From Planctomycetota bacterium (GTDB lineage: Bacteria > Planctomycetota > Planctomycetia > Gemmatales > Gemmataceae), in NCBI GenBank assembly GCA_021413735.1, contig JAIOPV010000025.1, positions 1 through 46,618 of the forward strand: a stretch of DNA of 46,618 nt, read 5' to 3'. This document shows, piece after piece, positions 5,212 through 46,618 of the stretch. A model generated the notes under the pieces. The model did no database searches, was not told the DNA's origin, and saw only the letters and a list, made by a program, of their open reading frames with translations. Both the position numbers and the translations under genes were made by a program. Position 1 is the first letter of the stretch. Each line of letters begins with the position of its first letter.

Positions 5212-5568
5212 CTACAGATCGTCGTAACGGATCAGCAACTCTTCCCCCATCGCGATATCCCTGAGCGCGAAATAGTTGTAGTTGGCGTCGTGGGCGACGT
5301 TCGGCGTTTCGGAATCGTTCAGATACCAGCCAACGCTCATGCGGTTGAGATCCTTCGGCACGAAGCATTCGGTTTCGTACCGCGTGACGTAGTGTTCCTT
5401 CACATCTTCGGGCACATCCCACGCCGCGAACTCTTCCCACGACAGCCGCCGAACATCATCGTCGCCGAACAGCTCGCGGAGCATCGTCCCTTGCGGAATG
5501 TTTGTCGTCGCAAACACGCCGACGCCCGCCTCGGGAATCGTCGAAGGCTTCAGCCGGAAATGGAGCAT
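5212..5568 (-). CDS. Small SET-domain protein
   Basis: The 118-residue protein is essentially one SET domain. It has the N-terminal GVGVFATTNIPQGTMLRE (the GxGvfA...I..Gt pattern), a central helical insert, then GWYLNDSETPNVAHDANYN, which corresponds to the NHS-type motif that helps form the pseudoknot and bind S-adenosylmethionine, and finally ALRDIAMGEELLIRYDDL, the GEEL..DY element with the C-terminal tyrosine. SET proteins transfer methyl groups from SAM to lysine side chains; bacterial ones modify proteins such as ribosomal proteins or have unknown targets. The ATG at 5566-5568 overlaps the 3' end of xdhC by 19 bases, so it is probably translated as the last gene of the xdh-xdhC operon. 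Why a SET protein should be coupled to purine oxidation is not known. Confidence 0.85.
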   Translation of the reverse strand: MLHFRLKPSTIPEAGVGVFATTNIPQGTMLRELFGDDDVRRLSWEEFAAWDVPEDVKEHYVTRYETECFVPKDLNRMSVGWYLNDSETPNVAHDANYNYFALRDIAMGEELLIRYDDL

Positions 5569-43556: not shown

Positions 43557-44984
43557 TCACTGACCGCGTTTCACCACGAGAACCTCACTGCTGCGAAAGG
43601 CTTCCGCGACCACACCCGTCGAGTGACAACGCACTGTCACTGCTCCCGCCGTCGGCGTATCCCAGATCGACGCGCCTGGATACGCTTTCGCAAGATGCTC
43701 GGTTGGCCCCGGTCGCTGGCTCGAAATCACAAACTTCGGTTTCGCCCACGTTGCCACCAGCGACGGAAGCGGAACGTGTGCCGACTTCGCCCCGTGGTGC
43801 GGGGCCAACATCACATCCACCGGCGACACCGGACGTTCCTGAACCTTCGTCTGCCCAAGCCCTTCGAGGTCGCCGGTGAGCAACACCGTGTGCGAGCCAC
43901 TTCGCACAAGCAGCACCATGCTCCGCGTGTTCTCGTTGCCTGCGAGACGTTCGGCTGGTGGATGCAGCACGTCGAGTGTCACGCGGCCAGCCTCGAAGCG
44001 ATCCCCGGCCACTGCGATTCGCGTGGCAACTTTGTGACGCTCGAACGCCGCGAGGGCCGCCTCGACGCCCGGCGAGGATTTATCGGTGAACGTTGGCGTC
44101 AGCGTGACACGACCGACCGGGAAGCGTTTCAGCAACTCCGGCGCTCCGTTGAAGTGGTCGAGGTCAGCGTGCGAGATGAACACTTCGTCGATGCGAGTGA
44201 TGCCGCGAGACCACAGATACGGAGCGATCACACGGCGAACGGCATCGGGGCCAGTGGTTGTGCCGGCGTCGTAGAGCAGCACGCGACCGTCAGGCGTTTC
44301 GATGAGCACACAACAACCGTGCCCGATACTCAAGAAGGTGAATCGGCACTCGTCAGATGTTCGCGGCTGACCGCTGATCGCAAGCCCCGCGAACACCAAC
44401 GCGACAAGCGATAGCAGGCAACGTCGCGACCACGGAGCAGGCAGCAACACCGCACCCGCAACGCCGAGATAGAAGGCAATGAGCCACCACGCAGACGGTG
44501 CCGGAGCGTAGATCCAGGCGCCGGGAATCTGCTCCACCGCGTGAACGAGCAGTTCGCACCCCGCCAGGCTCCATTCGACGAGTTTCGCAAATGGCCAAAC
44601 GATCCACACACCCAACGGCGACACGAGCAGCAGGATGAAACCAGCCACGAGTGCGACCGACGTGAGCAGCACCAACGGCGGCCCGAGCAGAATGCCGACG
44701 GGCGAAACGAGATTCTGCCACGCGAGGATGAGCGGTGCGTTCGCGATGCCGAGGATGCTGCTGATGGCAAACGCGACCCACACGATTCGCAGCACGGCTC
44801 GCAACAGTTTCTCGGTTGCAGTGCGGCTCTCTTCGATGAGTTGTTCCACGGGCGTGAGCGGTCGCGGTGCGAGCCAGCGACCCGCACCCCAAACCAAAAC
44901 AATTGTATGGTTGGAACGGAAAGATAGGTGACTGCCACGAAAACTGTCCCGAACTCCAAGCGGATTCAAGGTATCATGGGGCAA
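43557..44984 (-). pseudogene. comEC: comEC 3' fragment (metallo-beta-lactamase-like part)
   Basis: The frame (475 codons, with only a TTG as possible start) begins inside ComEC. Residues ~5-45 (LNPLGVRDSFRGSHLSF, NHTIVLVWGAGRWLAPRPLTP) are a diverged repeat of the end of the 5' fragment (LNPTDPFTAGCQLSFLSVFVMLWG). Then come membrane segments (VAFAISSILGIANAPLILAW, LVLLTSVALVAGFILLLVSP, WWLIAFYLGVAGAVLLPAPW), and the metallo-hydrolase domain FLSIGHGCCVLIETPDGRVLLYDAG, EVFISHADLDHFNGAPEL (HxDxDH), VLLTGDLEGLG and LAPHHGAK. ComEC transports single-stranded DNA through the inner membrane in competence, and this domain degrades the other strand. The gene is interrupted by about 1.2 kb, so normal full-length ComEC cannot be made; the hydrolase part could remain if translated on its own. 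Confidence 0.88.
44884..44942. repeat. comEC-segment repeat, copy 3
   Basis: GCACCCCAAACCAAAACAAT (44884 onward) to CCACGAA is the third diverged copy of a short comEC segment; the other two are 45666-45782 and 46136-46253. It keeps the comEC frame into the 3' fragment and contains a three-base insertion compared with copy 2. Similarity at protein level extends further left in the transcript to the shared Leu-Asn-Pro. Confidence 0.7.
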
Positions 44985-45007
44985 AAAGGCGGTTCAGAGG
45001 ACAAGCG

Positions 45008-45649
45008 ATGACGGAAGCCGAATGGCTCAAGGCAAAATCCCCGACTCCAATGCTGGGGTACTTGGAAGGCAAGGCGAGCGAGAGGAAGTTACGGCTCTTT
45101 GCCGTGGCGTGCTGTCGTCGTCATTGGCACTTTCCACTGGAGGAGATGGCCCCTCCCGATTCCACTTGGATTGCAGACATCCGGGCCGCTGTAGACGTTG
45201 GGGAAAAACTTGCGGATGGAGAGGCACATGCCTCTGAGGTAGAGCAGGCACGGGATCAGAGCGGTTGTGGTATTGAGGTCTTGTATGCTTTCATTGGGTG
45301 TGTCAAGGAAGGGGAGAGCCTGCGTGCTGTCTCGACGAACCTTCTCGACGCTGCCGGTGAACTTTCAAGCAACCGACAAAGTGAGGCGAAGGCTCAATGT
45401 GGTCTGCTCCGATGCGTCTTCGGGGATTCCTTCAAGAGAATTCGTCGTCAACGCAAGTGGCTCACGCCAACCGTCACCCAACTTGCCGAACACATTTACC
45501 AAGAGCGTGCCTTCGACCAGATGCCGATCCTTGCCGACGCACTTCAAGACGCTGAATGCGACAACGCCGACATCCTGAACCACTGCCGACAACCGAGTGA
45601 ACACGTTCGAGGATGTTGGGTGGTCGATCTCATCTTGGGCAAATCGTAA
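45008..45649 (+). CDS. Gemmata-type MTEAEWL/HVRGCWVVDL family protein
   Basis: 213 residues from ATG 45008. The N-terminus MTEAEWLKAKSPTPMLGYLEGKASERKLRLF and AVACCRRHW is a very characteristic block. The C-terminus RKWLTPTVTQLAEHIYQERAFDQM, PILADALQDAECDNADILNHCR and HVRGCWVVDLILGK is equally conserved. I recognise both from a large paralogue family in Gemmata genomes; its function is unknown. Length is full. Cys-rich and helical, it has no signal or membrane segment, so it is probably cytoplasmic. It lies between copies 2 and 3 of the comEC repeat, on the strand opposite to comEC, which suggests it came in as a cassette. I cannot say whether it is expressed. Confidence 0.85.
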   Translation: MTEAEWLKAKSPTPMLGYLEGKASERKLRLFAVACCRRHWHFPLEEMAPPDSTWIADIRAAVDVGEKLADGEAHASEVEQARDQSGCGIEVLYAFIGCVKEGESLRAVSTNLLDAAGELSSNRQSEAKAQCGLLRCVFGDSFKRIRRQRKWLTPTVTQLAEHIYQERAFDQMPILADALQDAECDNADILNHCRQPSEHVRGCWVVDLILGKS

Positions 45650-45665
45650 CCCTCACAGAACGAAT

Positions 45666-45782
45666 GGTGACAGCACGCTTTCACCCTTGATTTTCAAGGG
45701 CTAGAGCGATGTTGACCTTGGCCGCAGCACCCCACAACAAGACAACGATTTGGACAGAAGGGAAAGACAGGTGGCTGTGAAC
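45666..45782. repeat. comEC-segment repeat, copy 2, with hairpin CCCTTGA-TTT-TCAAGGG
   Basis: This 117-base copy aligns almost without gaps to copy 1 (46136-46253), beginning with GGTGACAGCACGC in both. The perfect hairpin CCCTTGATTTTCAAGGG (45684-45700) is the reverse complement of that in copy 1. The rest, read on the minus strand, gives FTATCLSLLSKSLSCCGV, a degraded version of FTAGCQLSFLSVFVMLWG in the comEC 5' fragment. Confidence 0.8.
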
Positions 45783-45786
45783 AGGA

Positions 45787-46047
45787 TTACGTTTTTTGCG
45801 GTGGCACGAACTTCATCTCGACACCGCCAATTCCGTTTGCCGTGAGAACCTCTGAGATGACGGAACACAACCAGTCGTAATCCTCCGAATCTTTGGGCCA
45901 TGCGGGATCATCGGCGGCGACGAGGACAGCATCGGGCGACATCTCGACAACACCGGCAACATCCACCAAGAACGAACCGAATACGGCTTCGACTTCCTCA
46001 GCAGAACGATACCCAGTGAGTCTGAGAAGCGGTCTAGCGGTCGTCAT
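45787..46047 (-). CDS. Small protein of unknown function in the comEC insert
   Basis: 86 residues from ATG 46045-46047 (preceded by GGGTGGGGCAGAG); an ATG eight codons upstream is also in frame. The sequence starts MTTARPLLRLTGYRSAEEVE and is acidic, with AVFGSFLVDVAGVVEMSPDA, DPAWPKDSEDYDWLCSVISE and a C-terminal strand GIGGVEMKFVPPQKT. It reads like one compact alpha/beta domain without membrane segments. I do not recognise a family. It lies between copies 1 and 2 of the comEC repeat, on the same strand as comEC, so it could be cotranscribed with the 5' comEC fragment. Confidence 0.6.
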   Translation of the reverse strand: MTTARPLLRLTGYRSAEEVEAVFGSFLVDVAGVVEMSPDAVLVAADDPAWPKDSEDYDWLCSVISEVLTANGIGGVEMKFVPPQKT

Positions 46048-46123
46048 CTCTGCCCCACCCTTTCGCAACATGGTTGTTTGACGCTCAACCTAACCGCAAC
46101 GGAACGGGCGGGCAAGCGACGTG

Positions 46124-46618
46124 TTAAAGCAGACAGGTGACAGCACGCATTCCCCCTTGAAAATCAAGGGCGGGAGTGTTGTTGCCCTTAACCATGTCAC
46201 CCCACAACATGACGAACACTGACAGAAACGACAACTGACAGCCCGCCGTGAACGGATCGGTCGGGTTCAGAATCAGCACCACGAGCCACGCCAGCGCGAA
46301 GATATTCGCGGCCATCACGGGGCGTCTGAGCACAATCGCCAGGCACAAACAGCACACCATAACCGCTGCACGCACTGCGGAAGGCCGTGCCCCGGTGAGC
46401 AGCGTGTACCCGATCATCACGACAATCACGAACCACGCTCCACGTCGCCGACGCACGCTGAACAACTTCAGAATCACCCACACGAACGCCGCGAGCACCA
46501 CGAGATGCTGGCCCGAAATCGCCAGCACATGCACGACCCCCGTGCGGACATATGCGTCCCAACCGTCGCGGTCGAGGGCAGCGGTGTCGCCCAGCAGCAA
46601 CGCCGCCGCCAGTCCCGA
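46124..46618 (-). pseudogene. comEC: comEC 5' fragment (competence channel), runs off the window
   Basis: The frame is open from the right edge to a stop at 46124. It reads SGLAAALLLGDTAALDRDGW then VRTGVVHVLAISGQHLVVLA (the HxLAISGxH motif of the ComEC channel), a membrane helix (GAWFVIVVMIGYTLLTG), ARPSAVRAAVMVCCLCLAIV, and NIFALAWLVVLILNPTDPFT, AGCQLSFLSVFVMLWG. At this point homology stops; the next residues (DMVKGNNTPALDFQGGMR) come from the repeat/hairpin sequence, followed by AVTCLL and stop. Intact ComEC would go directly to VWGAGRWLAPRPL, which is found at the start of the 3' fragment 1.2 kb away. Upstream N-terminal part lies beyond the window. Confidence 0.88.
46136..46253. repeat. 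comEC-segment repeat, copy 1, with hairpin CCCTTGA-AAA-TCAAGGG
   Basis: This 118-base copy is joined to the comEC 5' fragment. Its left half (46136-46195) is not comEC-like but matches copy 2, including GGTGACAGCACGC and the perfect hairpin CCCTTGAAAATCAAGGG (46154-46170). Its right half codes for the last intact comEC residues. Confidence 0.8.

Follow-up and report, generated by a model that had tools for sequence, protein, structure and literature searches.

The competence gene comEC is interrupted by two small tandem inserts in the window studied here, i.e., in the whole stretch of 46,618 nucleotides that we analyzed. The window is an entire contig (C71), ending inside comEC, of a draft planctomycete genome of 9.8 Mb in 293 contigs (hereafter G000). 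A first-pass annotation of the window had described a comEC gene split by two small cassettes. The split was confirmed: the gene is present as two pieces, its Competence domain is divided between them, and the DNA that interrupts the coding sequence is foreign. We propose that the inserts are two small non-autonomous modules, each consisting of a gene between a conserved end X and a conserved end Y, which were successively inserted at one comEC site by site-specific recombination at the sequence TGGGGTG. In our judgement, this proposal has about an even chance of being correct.

Both comEC pieces lie on the minus strand at the contig end. The 5' fragment (46198..46618, minus strand) represents the middle of the gene; similarity to comEC stops at the TGGGGTG core, and the limit of the piece is at about 46198. 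The 3' fragment (43557..44884, minus strand) is open down to its stop codon and includes the remainder of the Competence domain and a metallo-beta-lactamase domain. Positions 1-136 of the Pfam Competence profile are found in the 5' piece and positions 150-268 in the 3' piece.

In the direction of comEC, the order is comEC, core, X1, a 94-aa frame, Y2, core, X2, a reversed 213-aa gene, Y3, core, comEC. The 7-base core is identical at all three junctions. Core 1 (46198..46204, minus strand) joins comEC to module 1, which starts with the conserved end X1 (46136..46197, minus strand) containing a CCCTTGA...TCAAGGG palindrome. The cargo of module 1 is a reading frame of 94 (or 86) aa (45787..46071, minus strand), whose end slightly overlaps the other conserved end, Y2 (45735..45788, minus strand). 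Core 2 (45728..45734, minus strand) is the junction of the modules. Module 2 starts with X2 (45666..45727, minus strand), which has the same palindrome, continues with the 213-aa gene (MTEAEWL..., 45008..45649, plus strand) oriented opposite to comEC, and ends with Y3 (44892..44945, minus strand). Core 3 (44885..44891, minus strand) joins module 2 to comEC. Thus two inserts with one small gene each, the first on the comEC strand and the second on the opposite strand, are present as reported earlier; their sizes were given as 353 and 723 bases, and the core-to-core units are in fact 470 and 843 bases long. The G+C content of the modules is 0.549 and 0.554, versus 0.63 in the comEC pieces.

The first-pass annotation regarded the junctions as three diverged copies of one comEC segment. 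There is indeed a repeat at the junctions, including a third copy between the two fragments (45666-45743 aligns with 46136-46213 at 78% over 78 bases). However, two distinct ends are involved, Y to the left and X to the right of the core in the comEC orientation. The middle "copy" is therefore the end of module 1 plus the core plus the start of module 2. The score of X1 against X2 was reached by none of 2000 shuffles, and the same is true for Y2 against Y3; with the core removed, the 40-base alignment of Y2 and Y3 was matched by 0 of 5000 shuffles.

Two rounds of site-specific recombination could produce such an arrangement. We infer a circular intermediate: a module joined as Y-core-X would recombine with the core in comEC, and a second module would then recombine with one of the resulting junctions. 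The expected product is comEC/core/X1, Y2/core/X2, Y3/core/comEC, which is the order seen. The recombinase would have been supplied in trans or since lost.

An assembly or binning artefact might be suspected in a draft of 293 contigs, particularly as the contig ends inside comEC, but we consider it very unlikely. Only 7 exact bases are common to the outer junctions, whereas 73-80 of the 80 end bases are common in 10 of the 20 listed contig-end groups with common sequence, which makes a false join at 7 bases improbable. Also, the ends are homologous on both modules.

The true 5' end of comEC was found on another contig, C170. The two contigs overlap in frame by 15 bases (window 46604-46618, C170 1-15). 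A third insertion at this break was considered, but the contigs overlap in frame within comEC, and the break would be explained most simply by a gap in coverage. Comparison of 123 ends of 60 contigs gave nine pairs with an exact overlap of at least 10 bases. Six of them are masked N runs and were dropped; the others have 73, 15 (C71/C170) and 11 bases in common. The overlap of C71 and C170 is shorter than the common sequence of the 10 contig-end groups mentioned above.

A short identical core at the junctions, as in large serine recombinase elements, is seen here three times. Inverted arms, which are expected for a recombinase site, reached scores around the three cores that were equaled in 1582, 1162 and 4696 of 5000 shuffles. 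Terminal inverted repeats such as those of an insertion sequence or a MITE were not found: the shuffles of the end arms are not significant, and a repeat search of the window revealed no inverted repeats pairing the module ends (the repeat I1 links the palindromes inside X1 and X2). The middle junction has no attC-like fold (z-scores -0.74 and -0.68) and no Rfam match at E 1. Group II intron traits (ribozyme structure, reverse transcriptase) were not found in the family and Rfam searches. The earlier statement that no transposase or integrase is present also holds for the insert genes: in family searches neither of the two matched a recombinase, transposase, serine recombinase or integron integrase.

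The lack of a recombinase among the two module genes counts against the proposed insertion of two modules. Candidates to act in trans are available (the serine "Recombinase" family is matched 14 times in G000), and elements with serine recombinases occupy other comEC sites in two related genomes, G002 and G008. However, the serine recombinases of G000 are only 24-35% identical to those associated with comEC. The rarity of the modules is another counterargument. The first-pass annotation suggested looking for further copies of the segment in the same genome, and there are none beyond the window: other listed matches to the junction sequence in G000 are 16-22 bases long with E of at least 0.3, and neither X nor Y has a second location there. 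No X-gene-Y module was found in the 94 other genomes of the family. Among the 95 family genomes, the sole match to the junction sequence besides the window is in G116, which belongs to another genus (E 0.007, computed per single genome). A translated 32-aa junction query gave E 0.054 for G116, 0.57 for the third copy in the window and at least 0.89 for other places. A 49-base pattern made from Y2, Y3 and the G116 segment, which matches these three by construction, had no additional copy in the 95 genomes with up to 3 mismatches. Weak junction matches in G056 and G021 (59 relatives searched) were dropped on reading by eye. No exact match to the junction sequence was found in viral contigs, and plasmids gave only two short matches (E 0.4 and 5).

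Most of the genus has an uninterrupted comEC. In 16 of the 19 genomes of the genus, comEC is a single uninterrupted match, the exceptions being G000, G002 and G008. This agrees with the suggestion, made already in the first-pass annotation, of a repeated insertion at one comEC site that is absent from relatives. The same split was looked for in the relatives and not found; in G002 and G008 the gene is cut elsewhere. Family-wide, comEC is matched in 93 of 95 genomes, several of the matches being incomplete ones at the ends of contigs. The genes of G006 and G011 show one stop with one query and none with another.

G002, a single-contig genome, has its comEC in three pieces separated by about 52 kb and about 34 kb. 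In G008 it is found on two contigs, and the link between the pieces is inferred. Serine recombinase genes adjoin the comEC breaks in both genomes; two were assigned by Pfam Resolvase and Recombinase domains and the third because it resembles one of these two. The G002 and G008 enzymes that share a comEC site are closely related (727 bits), and the enzyme at the second G002 site is distant (about 157 bits). Direct repeats of comEC, 12, 9 and 7 bases long, mark the element ends. In G008 (DS2.012; L041 6570-8263 and L028 5950-6001) comEC is cut in the metallo-beta-lactamase region, the break adjoins a 540-aa serine recombinase, and a 9-base comEC direct repeat is present at both ends. In G002 (L148, L149, L174) the gene is broken twice, and one recombinase is the close relative of that of G008, at the same comEC position. 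A different picture was seen in G112 (palsa_1347, L026 7280-8420), where partial comEC fragments lie behind an intact comEC; two of the fragments end at nearly the same position of the gene, and each continues into different unrelated DNA with small frames.

Together, the three interrupted genes suggest that mobile DNA repeatedly lands in comEC in this group. The intended control, a 1404-aa xanthine-dehydrogenase-like gene in the window, was matched in only two of the 19 genomes and yields no interruption rate for comparison.

The elements of G002 and G008 raise the question of whether the window holds remnants of one or two larger tandem integrative elements of this kind, reduced to their ends and one gene each. 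The presence of such elements in comEC of these relatives, with recombinases adjoining the gene and short comEC direct repeats, speaks for this explanation. We nevertheless regard it as rather unlikely. The comEC site of the window differs from the sites in G002 and G008, neither genome has a match to the Y-core-X junction, and the modules contain no remnant of a recombinase. Besides, both modules retain both ends and a gene, which would seldom be the outcome of independent deletions.

The comEC fragments are open and do not look decayed. Their pn/ps values against relatives are 0.12-0.34, approximately the range among the relatives themselves (0.15-0.38), a set that includes the interrupted gene of G008; the values are no proof of function. 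This points to a recent break or to continued selection on the fragments. The cut through the Competence domain makes the predicted loss of DNA uptake plausible.

The state of the fragments bears on the origin of Y as well. By eye, the peptide encoded by Y resembles ComEC, and the first-pass annotation concluded that each junction is a diverged copy of this comEC. The scores of Y3 against comEC are at chance (reached by 687 of 2000 shuffles for a relative's comEC and 431 of 2000 for the own one), as are those of X1 and X2 (550 and 662 of 2000). Y2 is only marginally comEC-like (175 of 2000 with the relative's gene, 12 of 2000 with the own one), and a comEC profile did not recognize the middle copy (DNA, E 14; protein, E 2.9). 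Divergence from comEC after the insertion is unlikely because the flanking coding fragments are undecayed, and our data do not support the conclusion.

The G116 segment was found by its likeness to Y2 (26 of 30 bases). It is a comEC-like stretch of about 100 bases (L171, about 5390-5500) upstream of a gene called caspase-like by eye, and it lies outside the uninterrupted comEC of G116. The comEC profile matches it with E 0.0012 as DNA and 0.005 as protein. To the right of the core, its score against the comEC of G116 itself was reached by 0 of 5000 shuffles, and those against two other comEC genes by 52 and 15 of 5000; the left side is weaker (45, 63 and 363 of 5000). With the G116 segment alone, Y3 scores no better than chance (1062 of 5000). 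Through this single chain of likeness, Y may have a comEC-related origin. Thus the idea that the insertion process uses or carries a segment of comEC stands in part: the 7-base core is common, and the G116 relative of Y2 continues into a comEC-like right side, but Y3 itself is not comEC-like beyond chance.

Two further explanations depend on these comparisons. The first is integration driven by homology: incoming DNA with comEC-like segments flanking a foreign gene would have recombined with comEC twice, perhaps by way of DNA uptake itself. The comEC-likeness of the G116 segment, clear on the right (0 of 5000) and weak on the left (45 of 5000), is in line with this scenario, as are the appearance of the Y peptide and the score of Y2 against the own comEC. 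We find it improbable, as Y3 and X are no more comEC-like than chance and the outer junctions are exact over 7 bases only, which is short for homologous recombination. The second is close to the first-pass reading: a transposase insertion whose target-site duplication of comEC was unusually long and later decayed. It is suggested by the comEC-like copies seen by eye at each junction and by the 12 of 2000 shuffles for the middle copy, but it can hardly be reconciled with undecayed flanking comEC next to a Y3 at chance. Moreover, Y2 has a relative in another genus, and Y is probably older than the insertion for that reason. Judging from these sequence comparisons, Y is probably the end of an element with a separate history, and not a target duplication that has decayed.

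The genes carried by the modules differ in their distribution. For the 94-aa frame, no relatives were found in the rest of G000, in the 94 other family genomes, or in viral contigs, plasmids and phages, and it has no family match. The 213-aa gene, described earlier as one of a family of paralogues, has 165 matches in G000 (these are pieces rather than genes, and the gene itself is included). The closest other match within the genome is 50% identical over the full length. The leader of the gene has 31 bases in common with one paralogue at 84%, which indicates that the gene came with part of its leader. In G000 the family forms dense same-strand clusters on contigs C210, C217, C239 and C268. The 213-aa gene has nothing above the curated cut-off in Pfam or NCBIfam and nothing in PADLOC.

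If the proposed insertion of two modules is true, the self-protection of mobile DNA by breaking the DNA-uptake machinery of its host extends to a planctomycete family, in which three genomes of one genus are affected at three different comEC sites, and includes even sub-kilobase cassettes without a recombinase. It would also provide a testable place to study the movement of very large Gemmata-like paralogue families. A bolder version seems doubtful to us: Gemmataceae would have a dedicated minimal system of single-gene cassettes whose attachment sequence evolved from a comEC segment or mimics it, and the cassettes would accumulate in tandem in comEC, shut down DNA uptake and in this way escape removal by transformation.

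A literature search joining "large serine recombinase" and "comEC" found no paper, and searches on planctomycetes and comEC and on Gemmata paralogous families gave nothing on this subject among the matches listed. That mobile elements interrupt competence genes is already known. Many elements insert into key competence genes (PMC11472951). Croucher et al. 2016 (PMC4774983) name comYC, comFA and comK as genes interrupted by prophages and comM as one interrupted by elements; in S. pneumoniae, comEC contains a mefA gene cassette. The likeness to our case is a foreign insert that breaks a competence gene. However, the cases we cite from that source come from other phyla and involve prophages, islands and a resistance cassette, unlike the tandem sub-kilobase modules with common ends in a planctomycete comEC. 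In Piscirickettsia salmonis, comEC is interrupted by various transposable elements (PMC12955456). There, too, the gene is hit repeatedly at non-identical positions, but, in the account cited, by transposable elements and with the gene partly eroded, whereas here no transposase was found in the inserts and the fragments are undecayed.

The large serine recombinase elements of G002 and G008 are similar in the affected gene and in the short direct repeat at the junctions. They differ in that they carry a recombinase, and in G002 they separate comEC pieces by tens of kb; the window modules have no recombinase and occupy another site. Integron gene cassettes are likewise tandem single-gene units with a common recombination sequence. 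The window modules differ from them: about 50-60 bases are conserved to either side of the gene, the inserts contain no integrase, the fold is not significant, and one gene has the opposite orientation. Thus the breakage of competence genes by mobile DNA is already known, and the novelty lies in the minimal tandem cassettes.
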